In this document: piece by piece, positions 20,547 to 44,833 of the stretch
Position numbering within the stretch: the stretch's first letter is position 1
Layout of the letters: each line of letters opens with the position of its first letter
NCBI GenBank assembly: GCA_017619755.1
Contig: JAFZRU010000024.1
Span: 1 to 54,902, forward strand
DNA length: 54,902 bases
Direction of reading: 5' to 3'
DNA from: Prevotella sp.
GTDB taxonomy: Bacteria > Bacteroidota > Bacteroidia > Bacteroidales > Bacteroidaceae
The notes under the pieces: generated by a model
What the model saw: only the letters and a program-made list of their open reading frames with translations
Databases searched by the model: none
Told to the model about the DNA's origin: nothing
Made by a program: the position numbers and the translations under genes

Positions 20547-21974
20547 ATGAACAAGATACTCACCATCGCACTGCTCGCAGCAACAGCATTGGCATACACC
20601 TCATGCAGCCCGAGCGAGGAAGACGACATCTTCGACAAAAGCGCGGCAGAACGCCTCAACGAGATCAGCGACCTCTACTCATCACGACTGCTGGCAGCTC
20701 CCAACGGATGGGCCATGCAACTCTACCCCACCAACGACGACCAGTGGCCCTACGGCACTGGATACCTCTTGTTGTGCAAGTTCAACAAAGACCATTCCGT
20801 AAGCGTCTCGATGAACAACATGTTCAGCAGCAACAAATTCAAGGAGGACACCTCCCTGTGGGAGGTCATCACCGACAACGGGCCGGTGCTCTCGTTCAAC
20901 TCCCACAACAGCTGCCTACATACCTTCAGCGACCCCTACGACATCGACTTCACCGGATCGTCAAACATCCCCAACGACGAGACCGGAGAAGGTGTGGGAG
21001 GTGACTACGAGTTCATCATCGTCGATGCCCCGGAGGACGGCTCCTACATGATGCTCAAGGGAAAGAAGCGCGGCACCTACAACCTGCTCACGCCCATCAA
21101 GGAAGGAACGGAATACGAGACCTACCTGGCATTGACCACGGTCTTCCGTCTGCTGCATTTCCCCAATAACGCACCCACCTTCAACGTGCTGAACATCAGA
21201 GGAGAACGCTACAAGATGAAGATGAAATACCCCAGCACCGACGAATACAACACCTCTTACATCAGCAAGTCGTCATTCATGGGAATCCCCAACATCTACC
21301 CATACGAAGGGGATGAAATCATCGACGAGAACTTCAACCCCTTCATCATCACCGATCGTAACGACAAATTTTACCTTCGCTTCCGCGACAAAATTACCAT
21401 CAACGACGAGTTGACCGCACAGGATTTCGTTTACGACAGCGAACGACAAGTCTTCCAATCGGTAGATGACGAGGAAACCTTCATTGAAGGCGACAACCCG
21501 GGTAGATTCTTCAAGGAAACCATCATCGAAGACTCCTTGGAACACTACAACTGGCGTATTTCCACCACATACGGCTCCGAGCCAATCAGAAATATCATGA
21601 CAAGCGCCGCCAACGAGTTCAGTGCAAAGAAGATGACCCTCGGCAACTTCACCTTCCTCCGACGTGACAACCGCGTCACACTCAACGTGAGCTACCGCAC
21701 GAGCCGCAATGCACAGGCCAACCTCTATTTCTACTACAAGGTGGAGCCAACGGAAAACGGCGTGAAATTCATCTACGACGGTTATGCCTCGACGGAGGGC
21801 AACGTGCTTGCTCAGATGCCCACCCTGAAGCAAATCATCGAAGGTGTTATACCCCAGTCGTTCTACGTGAGATCAAGACTCTCACCGTTCGACTTGAACG
21901 AGATACGCCTCACATCCGAGTCAGCAGACCCCGAACAAACATTGATATTGGAATTATCCAAAAACACCAAATAA
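20547..21974 (+). CDS. DUF4302 family lipoprotein
   Basis: 475 residues from the ATG at 20547, which gives a lipoprotein signal (ALAYTSC, Cys20) followed by acidic SEEDD. The start region ERLNEISDLYSSRLLAAPNGW and the following beta-rich stretch fit DUF4302, a family that repeatedly accompanies SusC/SusD plus metallohydrolase genes. It may be an additional surface binding protein. Function not established. It lies 19 nt after the previous gene. Confidence 0.8.
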   Translation: MNKILTIALLAATALAYTSCSPSEEDDIFDKSAAERLNEISDLYSSRLLAAPNGWAMQLYPTNDDQWPYGTGYLLLCKFNKDHSVSVSMNNMFSSNKFKEDTSLWEVITDNGPVLSFNSHNSCLHTFSDPYDIDFTGSSNIPNDETGEGVGGDYEFIIVDAPEDGSYMMLKGKKRGTYNLLTPIKEGTEYETYLALTTVFRLLHFPNNAPTFNVLNIRGERYKMKMKYPSTDEYNTSYISKSSFMGIPNIYPYEGDEIIDENFNPFIITDRNDKFYLRFRDKITINDELTAQDFVYDSERQVFQSVDDEETFIEGDNPGRFFKETIIEDSLEHYNWRISTTYGSEPIRNIMTSAANEFSAKKMTLGNFTFLRRDNRVTLNVSYRTSRNAQANLYFYYKVEPTENGVKFIYDGYASTEGNVLAQMPTLKQIIEGVIPQSFYVRSRLSPFDLNEIRLTSESADPEQTLILELSKNTK

Positions 21975-32282: not shown

Positions 32283-33752
32283 TCACGTCCTCGCCATATT
32301 TCTCCCGGCGTCGATGCGCAGGAAGATGAAGAGGAGGATGGTGAAGCCCCACAGCGAACTGCCTCCATAACTGAAGAAGGGCAGCGGGATGCCAATCACC
32401 GGCGTCAGGCCAAGTACCATGCCCACGTTGATGAACACGTGGAAGAGGAAGATGCTCAACACGCAGTATCCATAGACCCTTCCAAACTTGAACGGCTGTC
32501 TCTCCGACAAGACGATGAGACGCAAGATAAGCGCCAAGAAAAGGAGCAACACGCCGGCAGAACCAAGGAAGCCCTCCTCCTCACCCACGGTGCAGAAGAT
32601 GAAGTCGGTGTCCTGCTCTGGCACAAACTTCAACTTCGTCTGCGTGCCGTTGAGGAATCCCTTGCCCTTCAGCCCACCGGAGCCGATGGCAATCTGACTT
32701 TGGTGCACGTTGTAGCCCAAGTCGCTCGTATCCTCCGTCATACCCAACGTTACCTTGATGCGGTTCTGCTGGTATTCCTCCATCACGTCGTTGAGCACGA
32801 TGCTGGCGGAATAGAAGAAGATGATGGAGCCGAGGGTGAACATGGCCACATAAAGAAAGTTTCCCACACGGGTGCTGAGTCCTTGATAGAGGTAGTACCC
32901 TATGAGCGTGGCACAAAGAATGAGCTGCACCCACACGATGTCGAAGGGTATGACATATTCAGAGAAGAGGAGGAACACCATGGTGACACTCAAAATGATG
33001 CCGGTGAGCCGAGTAGCCTTTGGCTTGTCGTCACAATAGACATACACCATCCCCGAGGAGAAGAGCTGAATGAGAAGGAGGACGACAAACTTTCCCACTG
33101 AGGTGGGCGTGTCCCAAAGCGTGGCTTGCTCATACCTGATGCCCACGACGAAATAAAGCACCATGGCCACTCCCGTGAAGAGGATGCTCCCCGTCATCCC
33201 CTCCCGGTAGAACATGAGGAAGAAAGCGAGATAGACAAGCGCCGAACCTGTCTCGTGCTGCAAGACGATACATGCCATGGGGACGAGAACGATGGCGCAC
33301 GAGAGGGCGAAGTCTCTCAGGCGGTGGATGTTGTAGCCGTAAGAGCTCATGAACTTGCTGATGGCGAGTGCCGTAGCGAACTTGGCGAACTCCGCCGGCT
33401 GCACCCTCACCGGGCCTAAGACAAGCCAAGACCGTGAGCCTTTGATGGTGACGGGGTTGAAGATGGTGGCGAAGAGGAGAAGCACGAAAAAAGCATACAA
33501 CACGTAGGCGAAGGTGTCGTAATACTTGTTGTCGAGCAAAAGCAGAACGAAACCGAGGCAGATGGAGGTGCCTATCCACACCAACTGCATGCCCGAGCGT
33601 GTGGAGACGCTCAGGATGTCTGGCTCGCTGAAGGAGTAGCTGGCTCCGCAGACGCTCATCCATCCGAAGACGAGGAGCGCCACGTAGATGGCGATGGTCC
33701 AATAGTCGAGCGACGCCAGCACGCCGGTCTGGTTATCTGTCTTTGCTTCCAT
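32283..33752 (-). CDS. rodA: Rod shape-determining protein, SEDS glycosyltransferase
   Basis: 489 residues, polytopic. SEDS family: PAEFAKFATALAISKFM and the final block GIPLPFFSYGGSSLWGF are the signature regions. RodA polymerises lipid II during cell elongation together with its class B penicillin-binding protein, whose gene overlaps it by 20 nt upstream. Last gene of the elongation operon. Confidence 0.95.
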   Translation of the reverse strand: MEAKTDNQTGVLASLDYWTIAIYVALLVFGWMSVCGASYSFSEPDILSVSTRSGMQLVWIGTSICLGFVLLLLDNKYYDTFAYVLYAFFVLLLFATIFNPVTIKGSRSWLVLGPVRVQPAEFAKFATALAISKFMSSYGYNIHRLRDFALSCAIVLVPMACIVLQHETGSALVYLAFFLMFYREGMTGSILFTGVAMVLYFVVGIRYEQATLWDTPTSVGKFVVLLLIQLFSSGMVYVYCDDKPKATRLTGIILSVTMVFLLFSEYVIPFDIVWVQLILCATLIGYYLYQGLSTRVGNFLYVAMFTLGSIIFFYSASIVLNDVMEEYQQNRIKVTLGMTEDTSDLGYNVHQSQIAIGSGGLKGKGFLNGTQTKLKFVPEQDTDFIFCTVGEEEGFLGSAGVLLLFLALILRLIVLSERQPFKFGRVYGYCVLSIFLFHVFINVGMVLGLTPVIGIPLPFFSYGGSSLWGFTILLFIFLRIDAGRNMART

Positions 33753-38887: not shown

Positions 38888-39000
38888 AATAAATAGGAGA
38901 ACGACGGTCTTTCTATCACTCACAAGGCGATTTTTTATGGCAAATTTCCACCGTGAGGGTTCCGGGCCGTAACTTGTACTCATATACACATAACAACGAG

Positions 39001-40416
39001 ATGACAAAAATCAACATGGCTGTCTTCGTGTCGGGCAGCGGCAGCAATTTCGAGAACTTAGTGCATCACTTCCAATCGTCACCCATCGCCGACATCGTGC
39101 TGATGGTGAGCAACAAGTCCGACGCATACGCCATGACGCGCGCACGGAGGCTGGGCATCCCTTCCGTGGTGATGGGCAAGGCGGCACTGAACGACCCGGG
39201 CCAGATGGTGCCGTTGCTGCGCCGCTACGGCGTTGGGATGATTGTCCTGGCGGGCTTCCTGCCCATGGTTCCCGATTACCTCATCAACATGTTCCCGCAG
39301 CGCATCATCAACATCCACCCCGCCCTGCTTCCCAAATTCGGAGGGAAGGGCATGTGGGGGCACCACGTGCACGAGGCCGTGAAGGCGGCTGGCGAGACAC
39401 AGACGGGCATCACCGTGCATTATGTCACGCCGGTGTGCGACGGCGGAGAAATCATCGCGCAGTTTGCCGTGGAACTCTCGCCCGATGACACAGTAGATGA
39501 CATCGCCGCCAAAGGGCATGCCTTGGAGATGGCTCACTTCCCCGAAGTGGTGGAGCAAGTGGCCCGCGGACTGTCCGAGCAGCCGGCTTGGGAGTGTGGG
39601 GTGCAGAAACAAATCCTCTTGATCAACGACATGGCGGGCTATGGCAAGGTGGCCACGGCGGCCATGCTGCCCATACTCTCATACATGGGACTGCCCGTGT
39701 ATAATCTTCCCACCGCATTGGTTTCCAACACGTTGGACTATGGAAAATTCAACATCCTCGACACAACGGACTACATCACCGGGGTGTTCCCCGTGTGGAA
39801 AGAACTTGGCTTCCGCTTCGATGCCATCGCCACGGGCTTCATCGCCTCCGAACGCCAAGCCCGCATCGTGTCGAAATACTGCTTGGAGCAGGCTGCCAAC
39901 GGCACGGTGATTTTCGTGGACCCCATCATGGGCGACGAGGGCAAGCTATACAACGGCGTCACGCCGGCAGCCATCCGCAGCATGCGCGAAATGCTCACCG
40001 TGGCGCACCTCTGCTACCCCAACTACACGGAGGCTTGCTATCTCACTGGCATGCCCTACCACGTGGAGGGCGTGACCGCTGCCGATGCCCGCCGCTTGGT
40101 GGATGCACTGCGCGAGGTGGGAGCCAAGTCGGTGTTGATAACGAGCATTCTGGTTGACGGTGTGCATTGCGTGACGGGCTACAACCATTTCACCGACGAG
40201 TATTTCAACTTGGAATACACCGAAATTCCCGTCCATTTCCCCGGCACGGGCGACATCTTCTCCGCCGTGCTGATAGGCCATCTGCTCAAGGAGGAGACAC
40301 TCATTTCCAGCACCCGCAAGGCGATGGACGTGGTGGCGAAACTGATAGAACTCAACAAGGACAACGCCGACAAAAACCGCGGCATCCCCTTGGAAAATTT
40401 CCTCTACTTGGTGTAG
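39001..40416 (+). CDS. Fusion of phosphoribosylglycinamide formyltransferase (PurN) and pyridoxamine kinase
   Basis: 471 residues. Residues 1 to about 190 are PurN: FVSGSGSNFENL at the phosphate site, NIHPALLPKFGG with the catalytic His, and VTPVCDGGEIIAQ with the catalytic Asp; it formylates GAR in purine synthesis. Residues 201-471 are a PfkB/ribokinase-type pyridoxamine/pyridoxal kinase: QILLINDMAGYGKVA, NLPTALVSNTLDYGKF, DPIMGDEGKLYNG, PNYTEACYLTG, and GTGDIFSAV with the catalytic Asp. The kinase half starts exactly where a separate kinase usually starts, with a GTG codon (39601) where Met would be, so the genes probably fused by loss of the purN stop. No frameshift is needed. Start at 39001 matches PurN homologues. 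Confidence 0.9.
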   Translation: MTKINMAVFVSGSGSNFENLVHHFQSSPIADIVLMVSNKSDAYAMTRARRLGIPSVVMGKAALNDPGQMVPLLRRYGVGMIVLAGFLPMVPDYLINMFPQRIINIHPALLPKFGGKGMWGHHVHEAVKAAGETQTGITVHYVTPVCDGGEIIAQFAVELSPDDTVDDIAAKGHALEMAHFPEVVEQVARGLSEQPAWECGVQKQILLINDMAGYGKVATAAMLPILSYMGLPVYNLPTALVSNTLDYGKFNILDTTDYITGVFPVWKELGFRFDAIATGFIASERQARIVSKYCLEQAANGTVIFVDPIMGDEGKLYNGVTPAAIRSMREMLTVAHLCYPNYTEACYLTGMPYHVEGVTAADARRLVDALREVGAKSVLITSILVDGVHCVTGYNHFTDEYFNLEYTEIPVHFPGTGDIFSAVLIGHLLKEETLISSTRKAMDVVAKLIELNKDNADKNRGIPLENFLYLV

Positions 40417-42847: not shown

Positions 42848-44371
42848 TCATACCTCAGTTTTGTTGATGACGTCGAGGGCATCGGCACCCTTATCAATGG
42901 CTGAAAGGACATCGAACACGCGGTCGCTCCAACCGGCAATCAAATAGACGTCAGGCTCGACGAGACGCAAGGGCAGTTGACCATAGCCAGCGAGGTCGAA
43001 CAAGTAGAGCTTTGCATGGGGTGCAAGCTGCTTGTAACACCTCCAAGACTTCTCGAAAGTGGAGCTGCTCCCTGTGCTGTTCCACATCTGCATGTCGGTG
43101 AACATCATCACCTTGTCCATCACCTGGTTCTGCTCGATGAGCCAGTCAACGACCTTGTAACCATTGGTGCTGTAGCCGACAGAACCCTCAAGCTTCTCCA
43201 ACTGACGTGTAGCCATCAGGATGTTGTCGGAAGGCATGTTGACCACCTTCCACAAATCACCGAAGATACCGGCGATGACCTGCTTGCAGCGGCTCTTGAG
43301 CAACATCGACAGCAACAGGCCGATGTCGAAAAGACGCACGGTGCTCTTGGCACTGACTGTTGTATACATGGAACCACTGACATCCGAAGCGATGAGCACA
43401 CGGGTGCTCTCATCAAAGCCCTCGATGTTGGCGGCGGAGTGACGGACGGCTGTCTCCAAAGCCGACATCAGTGCCGAAGTCCCAGTGTTGTTGACCTTCT
43501 CAATCTCACGGTAGGCCGAGAGATAACGGAAGGGCAACTGCTTCGACTTGGCCACCTGGGCGGCATCAGAGAGGCGGTCGGCGACAAGTTGCAAGTCGGC
43601 GAACGACACGTCAGCCTGAAGCAGGTTGCGCAGGTTGCGCATCAAAGCCATATAGCCGAGTTTGCCACTACGCACCAATTCCTCCCACTTCTGACGGAAG
43701 GCGGCAGCCTTCTCCTCGTTGGAGGCGAACTGCTGCTGGCCAAGGGCCGACAACTCCGTCTCCCAGGTATAGGGCGTCTCCAACTGGCGGTTGACAATCT
43801 TGTCGAACAATGCCTGCTGTTGCCCATCCTTTGCCTTGGGGTGGACGAGGAAGAGTGCGTCACAGAGCTTCACCTCGAGGTTGTCACGGTTATACTTGGC
43901 GAACTGGTACTCGTCGAAGCGGTTGAACGCACGCTGCAAACCATTCTGGATCTGGCGTGAGAGCTTGCCGAGTTTCTTGCGCGGGTCAGCAGAAGGATTG
44001 CGCCACTGATAGCACATCAGCAACTCCATGATCTCATCGGCTCGTAGCACGGTCTTCTCCACGGCACGGGCCACGAGGTCATCGCCATTATGCACCTTGG
44101 CCAACTCCACAAGCAACAGCATGGGAATGCTGCGGAGATGCATCTCCGTGCGGGCATAGACGGCGAGGCGGGCGACGAACTCCGGCGACACCTTGCGCAC
44201 CAGGGCAGCGATGCGTTTGACACGCTCGTCCTCCTTCTCGTAGAACAAGTCGCTCAGCGACGCGGTCACAACGGCGGTGTAAAGTTCCAATTCGGGGGTC
44301 ATGGCGTATGCCTTGGCTCCCTCATAGTTCATCACAGTCATTTGCTCTTTCAACTTCGAATTCCAGTTCAT
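42848..44371 (-). CDS. TROVE domain protein, Ro60/Rsr homologue
   Basis: 507 residues from the ATG at 44371. Residues 1 to about 310 are the TROVE HEAT-repeat ring (e.g. FVARLAVYARTEMHLRSIPM, AFNRFDEYQFAKYNR); a von Willebrand A domain follows with an intact MIDAS motif DVSGSM (Asp330, Ser332, Ser334). Ro60 proteins bind the ends of misfolded RNAs in the ring and Y RNAs on the outer face; in bacteria the Y RNA tethers Ro to a nuclease such as PNPase (family knowledge). Two Y-RNA-like genes lie directly upstream on the same strand and probably share its promoter. No rtcB or nuclease gene is adjacent. The start agrees with homologues, and the longer frame would enter the RNA region. Confidence 0.93.
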   Translation of the reverse strand: MNWNSKLKEQMTVMNYEGAKAYAMTPELELYTAVVTASLSDLFYEKEDERVKRIAALVRKVSPEFVARLAVYARTEMHLRSIPMLLLVELAKVHNGDDLVARAVEKTVLRADEIMELLMCYQWRNPSADPRKKLGKLSRQIQNGLQRAFNRFDEYQFAKYNRDNLEVKLCDALFLVHPKAKDGQQQALFDKIVNRQLETPYTWETELSALGQQQFASNEEKAAAFRQKWEELVRSGKLGYMALMRNLRNLLQADVSFADLQLVADRLSDAAQVAKSKQLPFRYLSAYREIEKVNNTGTSALMSALETAVRHSAANIEGFDESTRVLIASDVSGSMYTTVSAKSTVRLFDIGLLLSMLLKSRCKQVIAGIFGDLWKVVNMPSDNILMATRQLEKLEGSVGYSTNGYKVVDWLIEQNQVMDKVMMFTDMQMWNSTGSSSTFEKSWRCYKQLAPHAKLYLFDLAGYGQLPLRLVEPDVYLIAGWSDRVFDVLSAIDKGADALDVINKTEV

Positions 44372-44415
44372 CTTCTTTACATCTTTAATTTTATAACATC
44401 TTTCAGCTATGAAAA

Positions 44416-44560
44416 GCAAGGCGACAGGCGAAAAGACTCTTTTACGTTGCTCTTACCAACTGAGCTACCGGACTATTAGTTAGTACAGTTAGTCCAGGCC
44501 GGACTTGAACCGGCGACCTCCGGCTTGCGATGCGAAGTATGTCTCATCTACGGCACTTGC
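44416..44560 (-). ncRNA. Y RNA-like RNA 2: tRNA mimic opened in the anticodon arm
   Basis: Outer helix GCAAG (44560-44556) with CTTGC (44420-44416), then the motif AGTGCCGTAG and its partner TTCGCCTGTCGCCT shared with RNA 1. Inside is a rearranged tRNA: T arm GCCGG-TTCAAGT-CCGGC (44514-44498), 3' acceptor strand CTGGACT, a 16-nt closing loop, 5' acceptor strand AGTCCGG (44474-44468), TA, then a full D arm GCTC-AGTTGGTAA-GAGC (44465-44449). The acceptor ends are joined, so it cannot be aminoacylated; the break lies where the anticodon arm would be. Position beside a Ro gene and this form match bacterial Y RNAs (YrlA type). Confidence 0.8.
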
Positions 44561-44565
44561 TTATA

Positions 44566-44700
44566 TGGTGTGAGGCGACAGGCGAAGAGGTTTTCTGAAC
44601 TACACCAGCGAACTGGCGGCGGGAATCGGACCCGCGACTTCGAAACCTGAATTCGACGTTCTAACCACTGCGAAGCAATCCTCTCCTACGGCACTCACCA
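44566..44700 (-). ncRNA. Y RNA-like RNA 1: tRNA mimic opened in the D loop
   Basis: Outer helix with AGTGCCGTAG (44695-44686) and TTCGCCTGTCGCCT (44586-44573), closed inside by AGAGG/CCTCT. The enclosed sequence is a tRNA in circular permutation: 3' part of the D loop GTGGTTA and D strand GAAC (44661-44658), one base, a 5-bp anticodon stem TCGAA/TTCGA with 7-nt loop TTCAGGT, AGTC, T arm GCGGG-TCCGATT-CCCGC (44635-44619), 3' acceptor CGCCAG, UUCG tetraloop, 5' acceptor CTGGTG, TA, D strand GTTC (44600-44597). The D-loop GG is kept, but T-loop position 55 is C. Not a functional tRNA; 5 nt separate it from RNA 2. Confidence 0.8.
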
Positions 44701-44746
44701 CTCTATTTTCACACTCTCAAAGAACAATTATTTTCGTTTTGCGCTG

Positions 44747-44754
44747 CAAAGTTA
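44747..44754 (-). promoter_or_regulatory. -7 box for the Y RNA-TROVE transcript (TAACTTTG)
   Basis: TAnnTTTG on the minus strand about 46 nt before the 5' helix of RNA 1. No other -7-like element was seen between the RNAs and the TROVE ATG, so one transcript may carry all three. Confidence 0.6.
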
Positions 44755-44833
44755 TGATACAGCTACGCAATGTTTCTGCGTAATAGAATTTTTTTTGAGA
44801 TTTCGCGAAAAATTGTGTCCTGTACAGAAGGAT

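Follow-up and report, generated by a model that had tools for sequence, protein, structure and literature searches.

The stretch of DNA analysed here (the window) comprises 54,902 nucleotides of a Prevotella sp. genome (assembly GCA_017619755.1, contig JAFZRU010000024.1, positions 1–54,902). Its minus strand carries a gene, ro, for a Ro60/Rsr-type TROVE protein and, upstream of this gene, two tandem RNAs (RNA1 and RNA2; Table 1) which are built on a common stem; their placement on the minus strand was missing from the original prediction. From sequence comparison we assign a probability of roughly 0.82 to the reading that this is a Ro60 (Rsr) ribonucleoprotein locus, composed of ro and of common-stem RNAs bearing two kinds of permuted tRNA head. 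The unit of ro and stem-sharing RNAs is conserved, the two being found together in relatives.

Table 1. Features of the ro locus, with their positions in the window and the evidence for each.
Feature	Position	Strand	Evidence
Ro60/Rsr-type TROVE protein gene (ro), 507 aa	42848–44371	minus	Pfam, alignments, AlphaFold model, Foldseek
Y RNA 2 (RNA2; class I, YrlA type)	44416–44560	minus	Rfam YrlA, R2 model, covariation
Y RNA 1 (RNA1; class II)	44570–44698	minus	R1 model, covariation, de-permuted tRNA-Leu(cag) call
RNA1 D-stem 5′ half GUUC, last in head	44597–44600	minus	A2 columns 111–114
RNA1 acceptor stem closed by UUCG	44603–44618	minus	A2 columns 89–108
RNA1 T arm	44619–44635	minus	A2 columns 72–88
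RNA1 anticodon CAG (7-nt loop UUCAGGU, 5-bp stem UCGAA/UUCGA)	44647–44649	minus	
RNA1 D-stem 3′ half GAAC, first in head	44658–44661	minus	A2 columns 43–46
Putative Bacteroidota −7 promoter box TAACTTTG	44747–44754	minus	TAnnTTTG count before arrays
Palindrome TACGCA-N7-TGCGTA, putative operator	44764–44782	none	

The ro frame opens with the ATG at 44371 and ends at 42848; an upstream extension to a TTG at 44419 is possible and would overlap RNA2. Its product matches Pfam TROVE (92.2 bits, cut-off 23) and vWA_Ro60 (29.3 bits, cut-off 27.7), and the five residues of the metal ion-dependent adhesion site (MIDAS; D330, S332, S334, T402 and D426) are unchanged across 45 aligned Ro proteins, in agreement with the claim of a TROVE/Ro60 homologue with an intact MIDAS. 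An AlphaFold model made from this 45-protein alignment has a mean predicted local distance difference test score of 91.4, and the top 13 Foldseek matches to it in the PDB are all Ro60/TROVE chains (best E 1.2e-17), so that the Ro60 fold of a helical-repeat ring and a vWA domain is recovered in the predicted structure. By sequence and by model, the protein is a member of the known Ro60/TROVE kind. The closest named Ro loci among the matches listed are 91% identical and come from Prevotella and Prevotellaceae records. The same genome has a second ro gene (L005:4714–6597, contig C7), the 627-aa product of which is 55% identical to the window Ro and carries a charged insertion of about 120 residues ahead of the vWA domain; TROVE frames of 625–631 aa also occur in other genomes of the genus.

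Both RNAs carry the same 5′ and 3′ motifs, found where they had been claimed. The 14-nucleotide TTCGCCTGTCGCCT has exactly two copies in the window, both on the minus strand (44419–44432 and 44573–44586), against a mean of 0.00 copies in 100 shuffles. The minus-strand copies of AGTGCCGTAG at 44548–44557 and 44686–44695 compare with a total of 0.07 expected in the window by chance; this motif also occurs at 20750–20759 and 33367–33376, inside protein reading frames and without its 3′ partner. Measured from the P1 stem of RNA2 at 44416, the gap to the ATG of ro is 44 nucleotides, as had been stated. The two RNAs have a common layout in which an outer stem (P1) is followed by a conserved internal loop (UGCCGUA opposite CG-CCUGUCGC), a second stem (P2), CUUCG and then the head, while the P1 sequences differ (GUGAG/CUCAC in RNA1, GCAAG/CUUGC in RNA2). 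The original prediction gave each RNA a tRNA core, which is right, but the permutation points of the two cores differ, which it did not recognise.

In RNA2, P1, the internal loop and P2 lead into a T arm, an acceptor hairpin, a D arm and a short piece left over from the anticodon stem. Structure, covariation and the alignment to Rfam YrlA (RF02553) all describe this head as a circularly permuted tRNA in which the stem occupies the position of the anticodon. RNA2 scores 35.1 bits against RF02553, short of the gathering threshold of 69 (RNA1 scores 24.7), and at that threshold no YrlA was found in the window or in 12 array-bearing loci, all 41 matches being to the tRNA family. Against the class I covariance model R2 it scores 132.8 bits, but it belongs to that model's own alignment. 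In the class I alignment A3 (27 sequences) 94.6% of cells pair, and 25 of the 32 pairs are changed on both sides compared with 11.4 in shuffles; shifting the partner by 1–3 columns leaves pairing at only 35–47%. Compensatory changes are present in every helix. By these sequence criteria RNA2 is a member of the known YrlA Y RNA kind: YrlA (RF02553, 6CU1) is likewise ro-adjacent, with a stem and a permuted tRNA head made of T arm, acceptor hairpin and D arm, and the Salmonella structure 6CU1 is described as superposing on tRNA with circular permutation (PMC11472068).

RNA1 differs from YrlA in its permutation point and in having an anticodon arm; here the stem sits in the D-loop rather than in the anticodon position. 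After P1, the internal loop and P2 comes an entire tRNA opened in the D-loop, in the order D-stem 3′ half, anticodon arm, T arm, acceptor hairpin with UUCG, D-stem 5′ half. The acceptor stem has neither discriminator nor CCA, its strands being joined by the 4-nucleotide loop. RNA1 scores 150.7 bits against the class II model R1, but is part of the alignment of that model. The class II alignment A2 (14 sequences, structure supplied by the analyst) pairs in 97.7% of cells, falling to 36–47% when the partner is shifted by 1–3 columns, and 19 of its 31 pairs are changed on both sides (shuffles 5.9, standard deviation 1.7), all five anticodon-stem pairs among them. For a de-permutation test, 36 matches to the class II model were classified by visual inspection, 25 as class II and 11 as class I. 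With tRNA order restored, ARAGORN calls a tRNA in 22 of the former and in none of the latter; Markov shuffles of all 36 gave 0 calls in 720, and the native order gave 6 in 36. The three class II RNAs without a call are those of L049, L031 and L008, while L054 and one of L088 lack a clear isotype. De-permuted RNA1 is called tRNA-Leu(cag). A linear reading, in which ARAGORN places a tRNA-Leu (tag) at 44610–44695, was rejected as an artefact of the native order. In a search of its own genome for a parent tRNA, the best match apart from RNA1 itself was only 19 nucleotides long.

The class II triplets found in a 7-nucleotide loop with U33 are CAG (window), GGG, GAG, ACG, GCG, CCG, UCG, UUU, CUU, CAU and, in L089, AAU; L068 and L030 have 7-nucleotide loops without U33. 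Among nine close relatives the wobble column (position 34) is the most variable of 151 (1.97 bits), followed by a T-loop column (1.89 bits); positions 35 and 38 vary, and 36 and 37 are constant. The wobble variability could reflect diversification or a lack of constraint. With its D-loop permutation and its anticodon, RNA1 looks like a new variant of bacterial Y RNA; the papers searched gave no description of a D-loop permutation that retains an anticodon.

To place the locus among its relatives we used the best 80 of 494 ro relatives confirmed from one scan of genome contigs, which with the window make 81 sources. Near relatives weigh heavily in this sample, one genome contributes several loci (L019, L020 and L036), and one locus is titled Thalassovita (L082). 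The 5′ side of the stem, GYCGTA...CTTCK, served as the stem motif. The ro strand has 228 copies within 2 kb of ro (5.5 per 10 kb) and 3 farther away (0.06 per 10 kb); the corresponding counts for the other strand are 13 and 2. At least one same-strand motif lies within 2 kb of ro in 76 of the 81 sources; the shared helix, which the Ro60-Y RNA reading expects near other TROVE genes, is thus conserved there. The arrays lie upstream only in 46 sources, downstream only in 23 and on both sides in 7. Their frequent upstream position, seen here too, would suit a cis-regulatory role as a structured 5′ leader of the ro mRNA, but the downstream and two-sided arrays speak against such a leader, as does an array in genome G343 on a contig other than that of ro, and we regard it as very unlikely. 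That orphan array (L126:6058–8270, on G343 C1) holds six stem motifs.

Demanding a P1 partner delimits 238 RNAs in 81 of 87 sources (the window, 80 ro loci and 6 further genome stretches); the demand makes the set circular as evidence for P1, but not as evidence that heads vary. Their heads show a T arm with a D-arm motif in 91 cases, a T arm only in 37, a D-arm motif only in 8 and neither in 102. There are 107 distinct P1 hexamers, and the largest arrays, of 6 RNAs, are reached in six sources. Across the 87 sources, R1 reaches 99 bits or more in 18 matches, of which 13 are rows of A2 (the fourteenth row is from L055), and R2 reaches 79 bits or more in 78 matches from 57 sources, 27 of these matches being rows of A3. 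Such Y RNA arrays are widespread. No paper on Bacteroidota Y RNAs was found in a literature search that did not reach the survey of Chen et al. 2014, and arrays with exchangeable heads go beyond the descriptions found.

Further heads were seen in these arrays. One recurring type, GGGGAGGAAUAGYGARGUYGUA followed by a T-arm-like hairpin and GCCCC (L008:2757–2895, L087:3351–3486, L091:7887–8023), was not recognised as a tRNA permutation, and others resemble tRNA 5′ halves with D and anticodon arms (CAU or CUU; L058:7520–7629, L061:7520–7629, L069:7648–7745). Clusters of ordinary tRNA genes lie in or beside the arrays of L055, L062, L066 and L078, and in 13 of the 52 sources given to ARAGORN it finds a tRNA-Met(cat) gene within or beside an array. 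A further pair of Y RNA-like RNAs lies about 8 kb from the second ro gene of the window's genome (L005:14326–14568, minus strand); the second of the pair has the class I form (52.8 bits) and is followed by a terminator-like hairpin and a T run.

Across genomes, the RNAs follow TROVE. Among 60 relatives TROVE was found only in the window's own genome. Of 393 genomes drawn from the order 6 have TROVE, and full-length R2 matches of at least 52 bits occur in 5, all within those 6. In the sixth (G422) the best R2 match of the genome search has 42 bits, and the two RNAs next to its ro (L014), which lack a tRNA head, score 48.5 and 46.6 bits. The best R2 match in a TROVE-less genome, among the matches listed, is partial and has 51.0 bits. 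Of 398 genomes drawn from the genus, 22 have TROVE, and the 6 that carry class II RNAs (R1, E ≤ 1e-12) are all among these. Decaying tandem tRNA genes without function are scarcely credible as an explanation of the RNAs: tandem tRNA-like stretches do give partial R2 matches (positions 31–110) in many TROVE-less genomes, which suggests how such permutations could arise, but every helix of A3 and every helix of A2 except the D-stem has compensatory changes, and high-scoring full-length matches are found only where there is TROVE.

In three genomes of the order, R2 matches also lie off the ro contig (G343 C1, G372 C37 and G092 C16), five of them on G343 C1; G372 C37 has an RtcB-like frame, named by eye. 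A phage origin was considered and rejected: among viral-contig loci R1 exceeds 100 bits only in L134 and L135 (108.4 bits, P1 partly unpaired), whose Ro is 81% identical to that of the window; the DNA of these two may be that of a prophage or of the host. R2 reaches 70 bits or more in 38 of 80 viral-contig ro loci.

The sequence ahead of the arrays also shows recurrent features. The Bacteroidota −7 promoter consensus is TAnnTTTG, and this motif precedes 30 of 49 upstream arrays, where random windows drawn from these loci would give 2.7. A palindrome resembling YRCGCA-N7/8-TGCGYR was sought up to 200 nucleotides before the first RNA in 82 sources (the 81 and L005, for which 800 nucleotides were allowed), and it lies ahead of the first upstream Y RNA, or of ro if no such RNA is present, in 45; counted with overlaps, the matches number 94 in these 16.9 kb and 91 in 936 kb of other sequence, where some precede neighbouring genes. 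In the window's genome it stands before both ro genes (for the second, at L005:7229–7247). A wide regulon in that genome was not borne out, since, among its 5 symmetric and 4 asymmetric sites, the symmetric ones were examined, and of these 2 precede ro genes and 3 lie in reading frames. Adjoining ro in genome G228 is a protein with WYL and WCX domains, a homologue of which is found in 40 of the 81 sources, in 34 of them at 47–78% identity over 329–347 residues; from these sequences, the palindrome is a candidate operator of the WYL-domain regulator adjoining ro. Elsewhere in the window, the frame at 38953–40416 fuses a formyltransferase domain to a phosphomethylpyrimidine kinase domain.

RtcB is found in 29 of the 81 sources. 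Circularly permuted tRNA genes yield mature tRNA, and both the presence of this ligase near ro and the tRNA-Leu(cag) call would suit a reading of RNA1 as such a gene, its transcript being circularised and trimmed to a working tRNA. This we consider extremely improbable: the acceptor strands are joined by UUCG with no discriminator and no CCA or room for it, a Y RNA stem is conserved around the head, no column varies more among the nine close relatives than the wobble position, and RtcB has no match in the window's own genome.

Several observations weigh against a Ro60 ribonucleoprotein locus of the kind proposed, or against parts of it. No stem motif was found in 5 of the 81 sources; in four (L044, L047, L077 and L084) the contig ends near ro on one side, while the flanks of L048 are complete, and R2 still gives a truncated match of 95.7 bits in L077 and one of 37 bits in L048. 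The bare R2 tally at E 0.001 covers 259 of the 393 genomes of the order, and some TROVE-less genomes have full-length R2 matches of 44–46 bits, so that only a gap in score separates the true matches from those to tandem tRNAs. R1 at the same threshold matches in 54 of 60 genomes, with at most 43.4 bits outside the window's own genome among the matches listed. We rejected the listed R2 and R1 matches in TROVE-less genomes as Y RNAs, because they are partial (31–110 or similar) or weak and resemble tandem tRNAs, and for this reason the E 0.001 tallies are uninformative on Y RNAs. Class II is accessory: within the genus draw, only 6 of the 22 genomes with TROVE have it. On the side of regulation and repair, the WYL homologue of the window's genome matches over residues 1–113 only, and the absence of an RtcB match there comes from an assembly that is 86% complete.

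The D-stem is the least secure class II helix. None of its 4 pairs in A2 is changed on both sides, and RNAalifold run unguided on A2 finds the other helices but prefers a 2-bp alternative at this place; it also adds a small hairpin, UGC-UUC-GCA, with one covarying pair. The D-stem is seen in single-sequence folds of some members, the window included, and in a wider set takes the forms GAAC/GUUC, GAGC/GCUC and AAGC/GCUU, in an alignment fitted to the model. As for the anticodon arm, only 11 of the 25 class II RNAs have a 7-nucleotide loop with U33, G36 and G37, and in L049 and L088 the arm is reduced to a short hairpin; a tRNA-like anticodon loop is therefore not always needed. The arm may be a mere structural strut that completes the tRNA fold, its anticodon having no role, and we give this reading, which is compatible with the anatomy described above, a little less than an even chance. 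The nearly random position 34 would fit it, as would the loops of other sizes in L049, L088, L031, L008, L053 and L054, but a mere strut would not need the U33, G36 and G37 kept in the 11.

For the Ro60 ribonucleoprotein locus as a whole, we envisage that the RNAs would be transcribed from a promoter at about 44750 and that P1, together with the conserved internal loop, would be the site by which Ro binds each of them. The shared helix fits the part of Ro-binding element, since RNAs that have a tRNA-like head and RNAs that lack one both possess it. The head would then project from the Ro ring as a tRNA mimic, and might bring tRNA-handling factors to the ring or gate its cavity, as in the Ro-Y RNA-PNPase machine of Deinococcus. 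The tRNA-like parts may, as originally proposed, recruit different partners: a class I head such as that of RNA2 would display only the elbow and acceptor side of tRNA, whereas the class II head of RNA1 would display a whole tRNA body with its anticodon arm. Class II RNAs should not be charged, since they have no CCA end, and could act as bait or decoy for readers of the anticodon arm, be they anticodon nucleases or enzymes of modification or repair; it is about equally probable that the arm has a purely structural role. By analogy, class II, in keeping this arm, would better suit the role discussed for the tRNA-like domain of Y RNAs. The unit is probably stress-induced by way of the palindrome, in many relatives perhaps by the neighbouring WYL-domain regulator. 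More speculatively, Bacteroidota Ro loci might be modular display arrays in which one Ro-binding stem is reused to show a range of tRNA parts (acceptor-elbow heads, whole D-loop-permuted tRNAs whose anticodons change, and half-tRNAs, besides heads without tRNA features); the set would serve as bait or decoy for the anticodon nucleases that phages, rivals or toxin systems deploy, and would be induced by a WYL damage sensor and coupled to RtcB repair where RtcB is present; we hold this extended picture to be doubtful.

Comparison with known systems shows both likeness and difference. In Salmonella, Ro, Y RNAs and RtcB form one operon (rsr-yrlBA-rtcBA), which is activated by tRNA fragments (PMC7790460). 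Ro, Y RNAs and RtcB likewise occur together here, in the sources with RtcB, but the regulator there is RtcR, in place of the WYL-domain neighbour and the palindrome before many arrays, and the arrays here reach six RNAs. In Deinococcus a Y RNA tethers Ro to PNPase, and a Y RNA domain has been likened to the D, T and acceptor arms (PMC8394870); the Ro fold is common to that Ro60-PNPase assembly (RYPER) and to our locus, the RNA being a tether there and a candidate tether here. Circularly permuted tRNA genes (PMC3978253) share with RNA1 the permuted order of tRNA parts; RNA1 differs from them in lacking a CCA end and in being surrounded by a Y RNA stem.

According to one account, the function of bacterial Ro and Y RNA had as of 2020 been studied in Deinococcus only (PMC7790460). 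A widespread set of RNAs with one stem and exchangeable heads makes the partners of Y RNA heads addressable by comparison, and a D-loop permutation that keeps the anticodon points to partners that may read it. Since the Ro60 of gut commensals is discussed in lupus (PMC8319742), the RNAs that their Ro proteins may carry are of interest as well.

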